Origin: Bacteroidota bacterium
GTDB taxonomy: Bacteria > Bacteroidota > Rhodothermia > Rhodothermales > UBA10348
Assembly: GCA_029262855.1 (NCBI GenBank)
Contig: JAJCYP010000022.1
Location: forward strand, 62,001 to 126,000
Length of the DNA: 64,000 bases
Direction: 5' to 3'
Part shown: positions 56,414 to 64,000 of the stretch, in pieces
Position numbering within the stretch: position 1 is the stretch's first letter
Layout: each line of letters starts with the position of its first letter
Notes under the pieces: model-generated
The model's database searches: none
The model's input: only the letters and a program-made list of their open reading frames with translations
Told to the model about the DNA's origin: nothing
Program-made: the position numbers and the translations under genes

Positions 56414-56965
56414 CTACATCCCCATCTGGCCGCGCACGCGCTCCAGGACGCTCTCGTCGATATGGGTGGTGCCCTCGGCACGGGCGACATCCTCGATGCC
56501 CTTCTGCACCATCGGTCGAATAAAGGAAGGGATACGCTCCATCCGAGCCTGCGCCTCGGCGGTCCAGGTCAACTCGCTGGCCGCCTCGATCTGCGGGGCA
56601 ATCATCCCGCTGAACGGACACCCGGGTCCTTCGCCGACTGGCTGCGCTGATGGGGATCCGCCCATCTTCTGGGCGTACCACTCGGGGGAATGGGGCGCCG
56701 GCTCTTCGGCGGGCTCCGCGCTTTCGACCACTTCGAACCCGTCCAGGTTGTCGCGGATGGTCTCCATGGGTGCTGCCGGCTCGTTTCGACCGCCGACCTT
56801 CACGCCGAGGGAGTGAATCATCTGGGTTTCCATGTGATTCGTCAGCATCGCTGTTTCCTTGCCGCAGGACGGGCATTCGAAGATGACGCTGAGCGAGCCG
56901 TTGTCGGGACCGAGGGTTTCCCGGAGTGCCATCGGCTGATCACATTCGACGCAGAGAAACTTCAT
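56414..56965 (-). CDS. Zinc-ribbon protein with C-terminal PCP_red-like domain
   Basis: The protein has 183 residues. An N-terminal four-cysteine ribbon (C5VEC8, C31PSC34) leads through a flexible Pro/Glu-rich linker, with a GCPFSG motif near 115, to a helical domain at 134-178 (WTAEAQARMERIPSFIRPM, ending HIDESVLERVR). That domain matches the small PCP_red domain found at the end of the protochlorophyllide reductase B subunit. It is the last gene of the nine-gene minus-strand cluster, with an ATGA overlap to the Mrp-type gene. Function unknown; metal or cofactor delivery is an inference. Confidence 0.72.
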   Translation of the reverse strand: MKFLCVECDQPMALRETLGPDNGSLSVIFECPSCGKETAMLTNHMETQMIHSLGVKVGGRNEPAAPMETIRDNLDGFEVVESAEPAEEPAPHSPEWYAQKMGGSPSAQPVGEGPGCPFSGMIAPQIEAASELTWTAEAQARMERIPSFIRPMVQKGIEDVARAEGTTHIDESVLERVRGQMGM

Positions 56966-57855
56966 CGGACTACAGGTTGGTCGACGCTTTCCAGAAGCGT
57001 CAGAAGATGGTCAACAACGGAAGAGACGCCACGTGCCGCCGGGCCGCGGTCTGACAACGCGCGGTGAGCATGCCCGGCATCCAGCAGTGCCCCGAAATCA
57101 GGGTCAAACGGTACCTCGCCGAGCGAAACAGTCCCGGGCATATCCAGGCCATCGGACGTGTAGAGGGCGTGCACGTGCCCGCACTCGCTGCATTCAAAAG
57201 ATGCCATGTTCTCCACGAGCCCAATCGGCCGGTCAGCCAGTGCCTCACGGGCCAGTTTGACGGATTTACGCACCACGTACTGGGACGCCGGCGACGGGAT
57301 GGAGACCACGACTGCGGCCGAGACCCGGGCAATGATATCGTGCAGGTTGGGGAGCTTGTCGGTGCCTGGGGGCAGGTCCACGAAGAGGACATCCAACTCG
57401 CCCCAGTCGGTGTCCGCCAGCATTTCCCGGACGGCATTGACCTCGGCCATGCCCCGCCACGTGTAGGCATGCTCCTGGGACGGCGCGGCCCACTTGACCG
57501 GCATCCCGTCGGGCAGGAAGAGGTCGATGGACATCACACGGACCCCGGCGTCGGAGAGCGGTGGCCGAACGCCCAGCTCACCTGAGACCGGGAGCGTCCT
57601 GCGTACACCGGTCATGCGGACCACGGACGCGCCGTTGATGTCGGCGTCCACAATCCCCGTGCGCAGCCCGCGCATCGCCATCTCCGTGGCCAGGTTTACC
57701 GTCATGGCGCTCTTGCCCACGCCGCCCTTCCCGCTCATCACCGCCACCAGATGCCGCACTCCGGCAAGGTTCTCAGCCAGTTTGCGGTCCCGGTCAGAGA
57801 CCTGGCCGGCCACATCGGATCCGCCATCGTGGGTGATATCGTGGTAGCTTTTCAC
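56962..57855 (-). CDS. Mrp/NBP35-type P-loop ATPase
   Basis: The protein has 297 residues. A deviant Walker A (GKGGVGKS, 42-49), switch DADINGASVVRM, switch II DLPPGTDKL and a CxxC (CSECGH) near residue 233 place it with the Mrp/ApbC carriers that bind and transfer iron-sulfur clusters. Unlike many Mrp proteins there is no N-terminal DUF59 domain. It sits between the USP fusion (six bases upstream) and the zinc-ribbon gene (4-base overlap), so it probably serves Fe-S delivery for this locus. Confidence 0.85.
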   Translation of the reverse strand: MKSYHDITHDGGSDVAGQVSDRDRKLAENLAGVRHLVAVMSGKGGVGKSAMTVNLATEMAMRGLRTGIVDADINGASVVRMTGVRRTLPVSGELGVRPPLSDAGVRVMSIDLFLPDGMPVKWAAPSQEHAYTWRGMAEVNAVREMLADTDWGELDVLFVDLPPGTDKLPNLHDIIARVSAAVVVSIPSPASQYVVRKSVKLAREALADRPIGLVENMASFECSECGHVHALYTSDGLDMPGTVSLGEVPFDPDFGALLDAGHAHRALSDRGPAARGVSSVVDHLLTLLESVDQPVVR

Positions 57856-57861
57856 CGCAGC

Positions 57862-59805
57862 CTACTGGTCGTCTTCGCCCTTCTCTGCGTTTTTCTTCTT
57901 GATTGCCTCCTCCATGAGTCGGAGCCCAATCTTGACGCCCTCCTCGACCGTTGCAAGATCAATCAGGTCAGTTCCGGCGGTGTCGGCCAGCTTCTCGATG
58001 CGCCGCTTGGTGGCGTTGCGCATGAAGCCTTCGGGCACCCTGGCCAGACGAGCCACGGCATCGGGTGTCCAGGAGTATTGCCCGTCGCGTGTATTGCGCT
58101 CGGTCTCGGTGGCGGCATCAACAGCCGCGTCCACGGCACGTTGTCCCAACTCCCCTTTTTCCTCCAGCATCAAGGTTTCGATTTCGGTCACGTCCACCAC
58201 CTCGGCCACCATGGCCCGGGTGATGAGGTCAATCTTTCGAACGCGAGCCCGTTTCTCAATCTTGGCCTTGGCGCGCCGCCTCTGATAACCGTCGGGGATA
58301 GCCTTGACGATGGCCCGGGCCTCCGCGGTGTATTTGAGCTTCACCTTGTCGAATGACTGCTCCTCGATGATGGCGCCTTCAAGTGGTGCCAGTCCCTCGA
58401 TCGCAGCCTTATCCAATTTCTGAAGCTGATCCTTCGGGGAGCTGCAAACCGTGCATTTCTGGGGCTCAAAGCCCCGAGCGACCCAGCCGCAGTTGCCGCA
58501 CACCCAGGTCTGGTCATCGCCCGCCTCGATCTTGGTTCGGGCCACATCGTCGGCAATGATTCCCATCGCCATCATGGAGGACTTCGGAAGAATGGTGCCC
58601 AAGGCCTGCTCCAGGACGGATACAGTCACAACGGAGTGACCGCGCTCCATGGCCCAACGATGGACTGTGGTTCGGGCGATTCCCTTGGCGAAGTCCGGCG
58701 CGCGGTCCAGAATGCGCTGCGCAGGCTCTGTCCAGATCATCGACGACTCGGCCTGGACATCCACGGCCGGCGTGAACCGTTGCGAGGACAGGAGGACGTT
58801 GCAGGGTACCAGACGAAGCAGGTTCTCGGTGTTGGACCCGATGTCCATGGTCTCGTCACTGTGAACACCAATTCGGCCCATTACCAGCAGCCAGGGCTTG
58901 GTGCGGCGTACGTACTCGAGAATTTTCTCGAACGCCTTTCCGTCCAGCAGGGTGATCTTGAGATCGAAGTCCTCTTCCTCGGCGATCTTTACGGCCACCT
59001 CGAGGTGACTCTGGTAGATCTTGGCGAGTCCCGTGTCGATCACTTCCTCGTGCAGCTGCTCCTGCTCCTGAAATTTGAAGACCTTGGAGGCCTTCTCGGT
59101 CAGGACATGCACGATGCTGTTGAACATCGCGTAGTGCAGGTACGGGTCATAGGCCGATATCGCCTCGACGGTCTTGCCGAACGTCTTGCCGAGTTGAATG
59201 GCCGTCTTGAGTCCGGCGAAGGACTCCGGGCTTCCATCGACCGCCACCACAATGCCGCTGCCGTCCTTGTGATCGACGCCGTTGGTGTTCGGCTTGACCT
59301 GGTCCTTGATGTCGGCCAGATTCTTGATGATGAGCGTGTCGGTACGAGTGCGGCGCACGACCCGCTCGCAGACTGATCCGATCTGGCTGTCTTTAACCGC
59401 GCCGAGTCCCAGGGCGCCCATGATCACCAGATCATAGTCACTCGAGTTGATGTCGTCGGCGATGACCTTGAAGTTCTTCCCGTCGTACATCTTGGGCTGG
59501 AACTGCAGGCCGGCCTTCTCAGCCCGCGCCTGCATCACCACGAGATAGGAATCGGAGATGAGCTCCAGGCCCATCGTAATCAGCGTGTCGTGGACCTTGC
59601 GCTGCTTCTCCATCTCCTCTTCGATGAGGTACTCATCGGGCAGCGTGAACTCCATCTGCTTGAACCGATAGTCGTGAAGGCGCGCCGCGTACGCGTGCGA
59701 ACCCACCAACTCGGCATCGTAAGCCTGCGCCAGCTCCACGGCCAGATCCACCGACGTGACGGAGTGCTCTGAGTTGTCTACCGGAACGAAGATTTTCTTG
59801 TACAT
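57862..59805 (-). CDS. Double USP-rubredoxin protein with three PCP_red-like domains
   Basis: The protein has 647 residues with a rare domain order. USP domain 1 spans 1-162 (IFVPVDNSEHS, VIMGALGLG) and USP domain 2 spans 184-343 (VVAVDGSPES, LVMGRIGVHSDETMDIGSNTENLL). A PCP_red-like helical domain (357-405; MIWTEPAQRILDRAPDF) is followed by a rubredoxin-like ribbon with C436, C439, C451 and C454 (WVCGNCGWVARGFEPQKC). Two more PCP_red-like domains follow (490-540, KYTAEARAIVKAIPDGY; 578-632, SWTPDAVARLARVPEGF). The ribbon could hold Fe or Zn. The protein may sense nucleotide and serve as an electron or cofactor scaffold; this is inference. Confidence 0.82.
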   Translation of the reverse strand: MYKKIFVPVDNSEHSVTSVDLAVELAQAYDAELVGSHAYAARLHDYRFKQMEFTLPDEYLIEEEMEKQRKVHDTLITMGLELISDSYLVVMQARAEKAGLQFQPKMYDGKNFKVIADDINSSDYDLVIMGALGLGAVKDSQIGSVCERVVRRTRTDTLIIKNLADIKDQVKPNTNGVDHKDGSGIVVAVDGSPESFAGLKTAIQLGKTFGKTVEAISAYDPYLHYAMFNSIVHVLTEKASKVFKFQEQEQLHEEVIDTGLAKIYQSHLEVAVKIAEEEDFDLKITLLDGKAFEKILEYVRRTKPWLLVMGRIGVHSDETMDIGSNTENLLRLVPCNVLLSSQRFTPAVDVQAESSMIWTEPAQRILDRAPDFAKGIARTTVHRWAMERGHSVVTVSVLEQALGTILPKSSMMAMGIIADDVARTKIEAGDDQTWVCGNCGWVARGFEPQKCTVCSSPKDQLQKLDKAAIEGLAPLEGAIIEEQSFDKVKLKYTAEARAIVKAIPDGYQRRRAKAKIEKRARVRKIDLITRAMVAEVVDVTEIETLMLEEKGELGQRAVDAAVDAATETERNTRDGQYSWTPDAVARLARVPEGFMRNATKRRIEKLADTAGTDLIDLATVEEGVKIGLRLMEEAIKKKNAEKGEDDQ

Positions 59806-59814
59806 ATGGGTGCG

Positions 59815-59866
59815 GTGGTTCAGCGTGAACGCAGGGTGGGTTCAGCGCTGTCCAGTGGGTTCAGCG
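59815..59866. repeat. Three short direct repeats GTGGGTTCAGCG
   Basis: Copies at 59815 (lacking one G), 59836 and 59855 have a period of about 20 bases in the spacer upstream of the USP fusion gene. The last copy contains the stop codon of the preceding gene. Confidence 0.5.
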
Positions 59867-60199
59867 CAATCGGCGAAGTCGCTCGCGGACGTAGCCGAGT
59901 CGGTCGGCAATGTTGTCCAGGTTATTCTCGAGTCCGGCACCGGTGGCAGCAGTGGTCCCCGCCACGGCAACCCTGTCGGCGGCATCCGGACGGAAGCCCA
60001 GGGACAGGATCGCAGAGCGAAGATGTTCGTCGCAGGACTCCAGATCAGCCGTCTCAAAATCACCGAGGACCACATCCCGGAGCAGGCCCAGGCGATACCG
60101 CACGGCAACCAGCATGTTGCGGCGCTCGTCCTCGATCGGCAGCCGGTCCATCAGGCGCCCCAGACGCGAGATCTCCAGTTTCAGCACCGAGGGCGCCAT
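59861..60199 (-). CDS. Small helical protein, unknown function
   Basis: The protein has 112 residues from ATG 60199 and is helical and charged (LKLEISRLGRLMDRLPIEDERR, NNLDNIADRLGYVRERLRRL). The same frame stays open upstream to the TAG of the preceding gene. The 33 codons before the ATG read like protein (AYGLTDIALGENNEWNELHY), but the only start there is CTG at 60298, so the true N terminus may be longer. No family is recognised. It is the sixth gene in the cluster, with a 55-base gap to the USP fusion. Confidence 0.6.
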   Translation of the reverse strand: MAPSVLKLEISRLGRLMDRLPIEDERRNMLVAVRYRLGLLRDVVLGDFETADLESCDEHLRSAILSLGFRPDAADRVAVAGTTAATGAGLENNLDNIADRLGYVRERLRRLR

Positions 60200-60343: not shown

Positions 60344-60931
60344 CTAGACGGGTGTCGGCCGGTGGGTCTTTCCGGGATCCAGGGTCCCGATCATCTGCAT
60401 AAGCCCTCCGTATCGACGCCTGAATTCCGCAGGATCCTGTTGGATGGTACTGAACGAAAACTCCGGAAGCAGATCATCCAGCAAGGAGTCCATGGTTTCG
60501 ACATCGATCCATCCGTGGTGGATGTAGCCCAGCGCCAGGTGGTAGTCCGGTTCAGAGCCACGCGCGATAAACCGGATCGCGACCGAGTAGGGGTCGAAGT
60601 GCCGGACGTCGAGCGTCAGGCCCAGATCCTCGGAAACCGGCACCGACCGGGCCTCATGATCCGCCGGGAGCGGGACTACGTCAGCCGGGTGTTCATCGTT
60701 TACTCTGATGCCCACGGCCTGGGCGGCCTCACGAAGCGCGGCGTTGAACGCCGTACGGTCCGACTTGCGAACCGCAGAGGTCAGCTCCACTTCGGTCGTA
60801 TACCTGCGCCAGCCCTCCAGGACCTGCGAGGTCTCGCCGATCAGGTGGACGCTCCCCGGATGGCCAAATCGGCTGTCCAATCCGCGTAGAAAGTCCCGTA
60901 GTCGATCCTGGTTGACAATGCTGTGTCCCAT
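60344..60931 (-). CDS. Nucleotidyltransferase-fold protein with altered active site
   Basis: The protein has 195 residues. The beginning (GSVHLIGETSQVLEGWRRYTTEVELT) has the shape of the pol-beta-type nucleotidyltransferases of the DUF6036 group, where GG-x-A and D-x-D are usual. Here these positions read GETS and EVE, so catalysis may be lost or altered. The remainder (FDPYSVAIRFIARGSEPDYHLALGYI) is unassigned. ATG 60931 starts two bases after the ferredoxin stop, so the genes are coupled. The assignment is tentative. Confidence 0.6.
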   Translation of the reverse strand: MGHSIVNQDRLRDFLRGLDSRFGHPGSVHLIGETSQVLEGWRRYTTEVELTSAVRKSDRTAFNAALREAAQAVGIRVNDEHPADVVPLPADHEARSVPVSEDLGLTLDVRHFDPYSVAIRFIARGSEPDYHLALGYIHHGWIDVETMDSLLDDLLPEFSFSTIQQDPAEFRRRYGGLMQMIGTLDPGKTHRPTPV

Positions 60932-60933
60932 AC

Positions 60934-61110
60934 TCACGTGATCTCGTCTTCTGATACAATGGCATCTTCGGGGCAGACCGAGACGCATTCCTCGAAATCG
61001 CAGCAGGTGTCGTTGATCACGTAGATCGGCTCGCCCACCTCAATGGCCGAGATGGGGCACTCGTCAAGGCACAGGCCACAAGCCGAGCATTTGTCCGTGA
61101 TCACAAACAT
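60934..61110 (-). CDS. Small ferredoxin with two cysteine clusters
   Basis: This is a 58-residue protein. The first cluster is a classic 4Fe-4S motif (C8SAC11GLC14LDEC18P). The second reads C36C37DFEEC42VSVC46P, lacking the regular CxxCxxC spacing but keeping four cysteines. It probably carries two 4Fe-4S clusters and donates electrons to the radical SAM protein or the reductase complex. It lies between the PNPOx-like gene (11 bases upstream) and the nucleotidyltransferase-like gene (2 bases). Confidence 0.9.
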   Translation of the reverse strand: MFVITDKCSACGLCLDECPISAIEVGEPIYVINDTCCDFEECVSVCPEDAIVSEDEIT

Positions 61111-61121
61111 GCTGCGATGGC

Positions 61122-61898
61122 CTAGTCGTCGGTGTCCAATTTCCCATGGCCTTCGTTCACCGTGTTGTCACTCCGCTTTCCGGGATAGCGGCGCTTGGGC
61201 GTCTTGTTCTTGAATCCGGTAACCCAGAAGCAGTACGCGTAGGGGTACATGGTCTGAACCACGTGGAAGGGCTCATACTCAAACAGGCGCCGCATGGCCC
61301 AGGCGAAACGGTACCGCGCGTCCTCGGGCGTGATGATCTCCACCAGACAGTCCACCTGGTAGCTCACGAAAACCGGCGAGTTGCCCGTCCAGAGCACAGA
61401 GGCGTAGGGATTCTCACGAAGGTTCTTGAGGGTTGAGCCCTCGAAAATCTCCAGGAGTCCCAGACGTCGCCAGTCCGCGTGTTCGGGATTGTTGTAGAAC
61501 TGCCGGGCCGTGTTCACGCGAAGGGCGCGCGTCTCGTTCACCGCGTGCGGAGGAAGCGCCTGGATTCTTTCGACCGCGTCCTCGACCAGCGCCAGATAGC
61601 GCTCGATGTACTCGTCCTTGGGAGTGAACCCGACGCCCTTATTGGCCAGGTTCGGGAATTTGTCCTCGTGTCCCCACGTACCCACAACAGGCAGGTGCCC
61701 CGCATTGAAGGCGATGTACTCGTTCTTTTCGATGGCGTCGTAGACACTGTGCTTGTAGTCCAGCTGCCACCGGACGAAGTCGGCGGGGAGTTCCTGAACC
61801 GCGTGGGTTCGGGTACCCGAGTTCAGTTGAACCGTTGCCTCATCTCCACTGACGCTGACACGGTCGGTCATTGCTGTCTCGTCCATCACATCTGACAT
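61122..61898 (-). CDS. Conserved-looking protein of unknown function in the respiratory cluster
   Basis: The protein has 258 residues and no signal or membrane segment. The C-terminal half is very rich in aromatic residues (NPYASVLWTGNSPVFVSYQV, RRLFEYEPFHVVQTMYPYAY), which gives a weak impression of a split-barrel flavin-binding or chaperone-like fold. I cannot name a family. It sits 11 bases before the ferredoxin gene and after the radical SAM gene, so it is almost certainly part of the same operon. A dedicated maturation chaperone is one guess. Confidence 0.75.
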   Translation of the reverse strand: MSDVMDETAMTDRVSVSGDEATVQLNSGTRTHAVQELPADFVRWQLDYKHSVYDAIEKNEYIAFNAGHLPVVGTWGHEDKFPNLANKGVGFTPKDEYIERYLALVEDAVERIQALPPHAVNETRALRVNTARQFYNNPEHADWRRLGLLEIFEGSTLKNLRENPYASVLWTGNSPVFVSYQVDCLVEIITPEDARYRFAWAMRRLFEYEPFHVVQTMYPYAYCFWVTGFKNKTPKRRYPGKRSDNTVNEGHGKLDTDD

Positions 61899-63173: not shown

Positions 63174-64000
63174 TTAAGCCCCGGAGTATTTGCGGCGCAT
63201 GAACGCCGTGATGCCGACGCCCAGAAGCAGCGTCAGGAATCCGTATCCGGCCATGGGCCCGACCGGAGAGGGCTTCTCGGCCACGTCCACGTAGACATAG
63301 TACCATGATGTCAGTCCGCGGCGATTGCCCGACTCGGCATTGAAGCCGTCCCAGACCGAGAAGGCCACCGGCACGAAAGCGCCCTCGTCGAAGCCGATAT
63401 GGCCCTCCACGTTGCGGTCACGCGTAAAGGTGGCCGTCCACATCCCGTCATCATAGGCGGCCCGCAATCCCAGGGCTGGCCCGCCCGCCCGCACGTTTCC
63501 AGAGCCGTTGCCGATGTAGTGCTGTCCGGTGGGACCAGCCAGGTCGGCGAACCAGAGATCGACGGACGATTTGCGGTCGCCGAACATGAAGTAGGGCATC
63601 TCGACGCCCTCGGGCGTCTCGGTCGGGAACTGGATTGCCACGGCATCAGAGAACGTGCCGGACGTATCCGGCGCGCCGATCCAACGCTCAGTCTCGTCGA
63701 CCGGGAGATCGGGTCCATTCATCCCGCGGGTGTCCGCGATCATGTCGTTCCAGCGCAGCTGAACGGCCACCTGATCGGCGGTCACCAGCGCGCGGGCTTC
63801 GATGGCGCTGATTCCAGGATAGAAAGCGCGGCCGGGCTCGACCACCTGACCCACGATGGCAAACAGGGATGGCGGGGTGGCCTCGAACGCGGCATCGTTG
63901 ATCTCGGTGACGGGCGTGGCCACGACGGCAGTTGCGTAGTTGGGCTCATCGGCAGACAGGGAAACCACGTAGTCCACCAGTGCCCACCGGTCTTCGATCG
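63174..64000 (-). CDS. Cytochrome c-ethylbenzene dehydrogenase-type heme-binding gamma subunit (5' end outside window)
   Basis: The C-terminal 275 residues are present and the gene begins beyond the right edge. The first residues (EDRWALVDYVVSLSADEPNY) look like the last helix of a mono-heme cytochrome c. The rest is the EB_dh heme b-binding beta-sandwich of type II DMSO reductase gamma subunits (RWNDMIADT, VAIQFPTETPEGVEMPYFMFG, VDLWFADL, GMWTATFTRD). A C-terminal helix and basic end (GYGFLTLLLGVGITAFMRRKYSG) anchor it, probably on the periplasmic face. It is the first gene seen of the cluster running leftward; catalytic subunits should lie beyond the window. Confidence 0.85.
   Translation of the reverse strand, partial: IEDRWALVDYVVSLSADEPNYATAVVATPVTEINDAAFEATPPSLFAIVGQVVEPGRAFYPGISAIEARALVTADQVAVQLRWNDMIADTRGMNGPDLPVDETERWIGAPDTSGTFSDAVAIQFPTETPEGVEMPYFMFGDRKSSVDLWFADLAGPTGQHYIGNGSGNVRAGGPALGLRAAYDDGMWTATFTRDRNVEGHIGFDEGAFVPVAFSVWDGFNAESGNRRGLTSWYYVYVDVAEKPSPVGPMAGYGFLTLLLGVGITAFMRRKYSGA

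Follow-up and report, generated by a model that had tools for sequence, protein, structure and literature searches.

What role can be played by a single polypeptide that carries two universal stress protein (USP) domains, three PCP_red domains and a rubredoxin-like ribbon, and is it tied to the genes around it? The question is raised by an open reading frame (ORF) in the window, by which is meant the whole 64,000-nucleotide stretch of Rhodothermales DNA that was analysed. As the first-pass annotation had reported, a 647-aa ORF was found exactly at 57862..59805; it lies on the minus strand, which that annotation had not given.

Domain architecture of the fusion protein

Domains were assigned by Pfam, profile alignment and comparison of two AlphaFold models with solved structures. 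Pfam analysis of the whole fusion gave two Usp and three PCP_red stretches, with the rubrerythrin ribbon below threshold. The composition proposed earlier (two USP domains, a ribbon and three PCP_red domains) was recovered, but not the order, as PCP_red copy 1 precedes the ribbon and copies 2 and 3 follow it. The features are as follows.

57862..59805, minus strand: USP-USP-PCP_red-ribbon-PCP_red-PCP_red fusion protein, 647 aa (ORF, Pfam, homologue alignment)
59320..59805, minus strand: USP domain 1, residues 1-162, motif G130-A-L-G-x9-G143-S
58777..59256, minus strand: USP domain 2, residues 184-343, motif G310-R-I-G-x9-G323-S
58594..58761, minus strand: PCP_red domain 1, residues 349-404 (profile, and 2kru with Z 9.0)
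58414..58512, minus strand: rubrerythrin/rubredoxin-like ribbon, residues 432-464, Cys 436, 439, 451 and 454
58186..58335, minus strand: PCP_red domain 2, residues 491-540 (profile alignment)
57940..58089, minus strand: PCP_red domain 3, residues 573-622 (profile, and 2l09 with Z 9.4)

A search of 100 genomes gave full-length homologues of about equal length in 22, a count that includes the genome of the window, and three further ones that were cut by contig ends. The closest named homologue, on a Rhodothermia MAG contig (L006), was 72% identical. Between the window's genome (G000) and G001, dN/dS of the fusion gene was 0.085 overall and 0.00-0.17 per domain, indicating that purifying selection acts on all domains and is strong for the gene as a whole. 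A chance ORF or a sequencing fusion was ruled out by this dN/dS of ∼0.085 and by the many genomes with the same length and order. The fusion is a real protein, and its domain make-up and motifs are established. Each single domain is already known, and the combination was not found described in the literature, in which no paper was found on PCP_red with USP, or on USP, rubredoxin, fusion and domain architecture together.

Both AlphaFold models, one of the full length (mean pLDDT 67.5) and a separate one of the C-terminal part (69.4), were only moderately confident. The pTM values were 0.49 and 0.27 (the latter for the C-terminal model), and the mutual placement of the domains was of low confidence in both models.

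When 395 genomes of the phylum were searched by profile, the fusion was not found outside this taxonomic order; the architecture may be commoner than this within-phylum sample shows. A pattern search of viral contigs gave 42 matching stretches, none of them a relative. No plasmid record covered 80% of the query; the best among the matches listed were tandem USPs of haloarchaea, with similarity to the USP part. Thaumarchaeota matches of a genome scan, for which weakly conserved peptides served as queries, were discarded as USP matches only.

The tandem USP unit

When the domains were scanned apart, the two Usp matches had E values of 1e-19 and 3e-17. The ATP motif G-2x-G-9x-G(S/T) was found in both halves, as GALG-x9-GS at residues 130-144 and GRIG-x9-GS at 310-324, and its glycines and serines were invariant among 20 aligned homologues, the whole of the homologue alignment. 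USP domain 1 contains a conserved insert of ∼60 residues (37-98) and domain 2 a similar one (217-280). Nowhere in the chain was conservation higher than in these inserts, with 70-73% of their positions invariant, and the two halves could be aligned to each other with the insert included.

The closest folds of residues 1-343 were tandem USPs, with TTHA0350 (3ab8, ATP-bound) giving Z 24.0 and an rmsd of 3.7 over 259 residues; the full fusion model matched Rv2623 with Z 23.9. Weak matches to KCC/NKCC folds were taken as common folds. The known tandem USPs (TTHA0350, 3ab8, with ATP; Rv2623, 3cis; UspE, 5cb0) resemble this part with Z 21-24 and, like the fusion, keep the nucleotide motif intact in each half. 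The tandem USP unit may bind ATP. The fusion differs from the known proteins in the two highly conserved inserts and in being extended at the C-terminus by 300 residues that hold the PCP_red and ribbon domains.

PCP_red domains and the ribbon

Scanned apart, PCP_red copies 1, 2 and 3 gave 1.8e-10, 1.4e-5 and 4.5e-12, respectively. Copies 1 and 3 were above the Pfam cut-off and copy 2 was below it (25.4 of 32.5 bits); copy 2 could be profile-aligned to copy 3 with an E value of 3.6e-13. Within the whole fusion, which matched the BchB equivalog models with 1e-13, copy 1 was also the best-matching stretch. The C-terminal model was compared with the NMR structures of PCP_red domains, in which copy 1 matched 2kru (Z 9.0, rmsd 2.2) and copy 3 matched 2l09 (Z 9.4, rmsd 1.6). 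The repeated C-terminal segments suspected in the first-pass annotation are indeed similar domains. The PCP_red fold also resembles AAA+ lid domains, which are common folds, and weak RuvB/MCM matches were taken in the same sense. Because of this likeness, the fold says little on function. We know of no proven binding function for PCP_red; it may act as a docking module.

The PCP_red family is common to the fusion, the C-terminus of BchB/ChlB (2kru), Asr4154 (2l09) and other nitrogenase-like reductases. Unlike these proteins, the fusion has no nitrogenase-like catalytic domain and carries three copies in one chain, and its gene lies outside any bacteriochlorophyll gene set. Identity as a light-independent protochlorophyllide reductase was rejected, since the nitrogenase component 1 type domain (PF00148) is absent.

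For the ribbon scanned apart, the RUBY_RBDX match was 9.5e-6, with 25.4 bits versus a cut-off of 26.5. The four cysteines noticed earlier (436, 439, 451 and 454) are all present and were also invariant in the 20 aligned homologues, in which the ribbon region apart from them was among the more variable parts. They lie in a rubrerythrin-type knuckle with the exact rubrerythrin spacing CxxC-x11-CxxC, aligned to 3mps and 1nnq, and in Foldseek the ribbon of the C-terminal model matched nigerythrin and rubrerythrin. Spacing and fold are those of the C-terminal ribbon of these proteins (3mps, 1nnq, 1yuz), but the fusion is without their ferritin-like di-iron domain. The metal may be iron rather than zinc; zinc could also be bound.

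Gene neighbourhood of the fusion

Since the window ends inside the operon, the upstream sequence was taken from the same genome (L009). Upstream on the same strand are CoxI, CoxIII, a CoxIV-like protein and CoxII, followed by a 604-aa protein whose N-terminal part is a CydA core. Two cytochrome c proteins of 270 aa each come next, then a di-haem cytochrome c-EB_dh protein and the genes surrounding the fusion.

L009:4299-6113, minus strand: CydA-like protein, 604 aa
L009:1175-2680, with its 3' part in the window at 63174..64000, minus strand: di-haem cytochrome c-EB_dh (haem b) protein, 501 aa
61936..63306, minus strand: radical SAM/SPASM protein with C-terminal PCP_red, nearest to the NirJ2/AhbD families
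61122..61898, minus strand: p258, 258-aa conserved protein with weak PNPOx/split-barrel resemblance
60344..60988, minus strand: p214, 214-aa conserved protein, no confident family match
59861..60199, minus strand: p112, 112-aa weakly conserved ORF
57862..59805, minus strand: the fusion
56962..57855, minus strand: Mrp/NUBPL-type iron-sulfur carrier ATPase with invariant K43/K48 and C222xxC225
56414..56965, minus strand: p183, 183-aa protein with N-terminal CxxC..CxxC ribbon and C-terminal PCP_red

The fusion and Mrp genes are separated by 6 bases, and those of Mrp and p183 overlap by 4; this close spacing fits co-transcription. A promoter and terminator scan gave nothing above chance. By hydropathy, no TM-like segment was found in the fusion, the radical-SAM protein, Mrp or p183. 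Between its Cys4 ribbon and PCP_red, p183 has a CPF(S/T)G motif of the Cys-Pro type known as haem-regulatory, and the Cys of this motif, C116, is invariant. The radical-SAM protein scored below the NCBIfam cut-offs of its best matches (NirJ2, 343 of 500 bits; AhbD, 311 of 500), so that a haem substrate is a guess. These nearest families (NirJ/AhbD) are haem/d1 synthases.

The CydA-like protein matched PF01654 with 3.6e-25 over its N-terminal half only and could be aligned to solved CydA chains; a second protein of the CydA family was not found in the genome. Its histidines 76, 182, 237, 269, 372, 388, 389, 536 and 538 were invariant. The CydA N-terminal core and the cytochrome c neighbours are reminiscent of the OR-N type cytochrome bd-like oxidases of Nitrospira and Nitrospinota (PMC10839748, PMC12342949, PMC8115632). 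No mention of universal stress proteins was found in two of these three papers; in the third, on N. marina, USPs are reported to be induced at low O2, and in its passages on USPs no link to a bd-like operon was seen. No characterisation of the present CydA-type complex was found in the literature. Elsewhere in the genome (G000), four NrfD-family proteins were observed on contigs C50, C59, C76 and C123, possibly of alternative complex III or similar. A 1205-aa ORF (L072:5601-9218, minus strand, contig C31) showed a likeness to alpha subunits of the DMSO-reductase family that stayed below the family cut-off; ORFs of 516, 241 and 242 aa come after it, in an arrangement possibly like that of a nitrate reductase or nitrite oxidoreductase.

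Conservation and co-inheritance of the operon

The order CydA-like protein, cytochrome c, cytochrome c, cytochrome c-EB_dh, radical-SAM/PCP_red, (p258, p214), p112, fusion, Mrp, p183 was kept across families f1, f11, f14 and f15, with a fusion identity of 63-87%. The position of the fusion was fixed in the 12 operons compared, and the set from the CydA-like protein to p183 was kept in the other genomes compared. Closely related terminal-oxidase genes adjoin the operon in the window's family; in f14 those upstream are all divergent, and in f11 and f15 none was seen within the stretch compared. In some operons, p258/p214 could not be found. Because their adjacency or presence varies, the terminal-oxidase genes, p258 and p214 were placed outside the operon core.

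The fusion and PCP_red occurred in the same 25 of the 100 genomes of the order, and the CydA-like protein in those 25 and in G014, where a 5,082-base contig ends inside the operon. The co-occurrence had a Fisher probability of 1e-22 over the 100 genomes, a value that ignores shared ancestry; presence was patchy within families. In the operon-bearing genomes, nearly all PCP_red matches fell on three proteins encoded by the operon.

Of the many PCP_red matches found elsewhere in the phylum, a few were examined; these were on nitrogenase-like reductases, a flavodoxin and a split-barrel flavin-type protein, C-terminal on redox or tetrapyrrole enzymes. The flavodoxin-PCP_red fusion (226 aa, L084:976-1653) belongs to a genome of family f27, in which PCP_red ORFs of similar length occur in many genomes and longer, reductase-size ones are also present. 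The split-barrel protein (L090:1483-2355, minus strand) had a weak C-terminal match, the sole PCP_red match of its genome.

The conserved operon and the co-inheritance bear out the tie to a nearby complex that the first-pass annotation had assumed, the complex being of the CydA superfamily. The link of the fusion to this CydA-type respiratory complex is well supported.

Possible function of the fusion protein

Co-inheritance with one respiratory gene cluster suggests that the fusion helps to build or control the haem protein complex of that cluster. The radical-SAM protein, the Fe-S carrier, the Cys-ribbon/PCP_red protein and the fusion look like a maturation set serving the haem-rich membrane complex, and a scaffold was therefore favoured over a regulator or an electron-transfer adaptor. 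It is tentatively proposed, at a probability somewhat short of even, that the fusion may be a cytoplasmic ATP-binding scaffold that builds or maintains the CydA-superfamily and cytochrome c complex. This soluble protein would serve one respiratory complex, composed of the CydA-superfamily membrane protein, two cytochrome c proteins and the cytochrome c-EB_dh protein. As an intramolecular USP dimer, the tandem USP unit would hold ATP and set the conformational state, and the PCP_red domains would dock like those on the radical-SAM protein and p183, so that the maturation proteins would be gathered. The rubrerythrin-type Fe(Cys)4 ribbon would pass electrons (or iron) to the radical-SAM/haem step, the Mrp-type carrier would serve Fe-S clusters, and the cofactor would then pass to the membrane complex. 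Cofactor delivery, ATP dependence and the direction of the effect are what we infer from sequence. It may be, as suggested in the first-pass annotation, that assembly of the complex or its electron flow is coupled to ATP or energy status.

Regulation of the complex once assembled would also be compatible with the operon linkage. The tandem USP unit would then sense ATP or stress, and the C-terminal domains would dock on the finished complex or the cytoplasmic face, tuning activity or turnover. USP proteins are usually regarded as regulators, and the exceptional conservation of the inserts and the retention of both nucleotide motifs would suit this role; however, it leaves unexplained why PCP_red is common to the radical-SAM enzyme and the Cys-ribbon protein beside the Fe-S carrier, and it was judged rather unlikely. 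A slightly lower probability was given to an adaptor in which the ribbon would be a rubredoxin that takes electrons from some cytoplasmic donor and gives them to the radical-SAM protein for its reductive activation, with PCP_red docking redox partners and the USP unit as holder. The rubrerythrin spacing of the ribbon and the C-terminal PCP_red of the flavodoxin, the split-barrel flavin-type protein and the nitrogenase-like reductases speak for it, but such an adaptor needs no two intact ATP motifs, and radical-SAM enzymes usually take their electrons from flavodoxin or ferredoxin. That a general stress-protein fusion stands in the operon by chance, without a specific tie to the complex, would be in line with the many partners to which USP domains are fused in nature. 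It was considered very improbable in view of the fixed position and of a co-inheritance with the CydA-like protein without real exception.

With the scaffold as the preferred reading, the whole operon might be a dedicated cofactor assembly line for the CydA-type complex, in which the ATP-binding USP part, the Cys-ribbon part and the radical-SAM part would be gathered through PCP_red as a general tag and a special haem would be made or modified by the radical-SAM enzyme; this idea is a doubtful one.

If this idea is true, a universal stress protein would act as an ATP-gated cofactor scaffold, and PCP_red would be used outside chlorophyll biosynthesis. The questions raised are whether PCP_red docks redox or tetrapyrrole partners and whether a USP unit can gate cofactor delivery. 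Candidate maturation genes can be named for the CydA-type complex, and USP and PCP_red, whose roles as domains are unsettled, are linked here to a single conserved set of respiratory genes, so that both roles can be tested.
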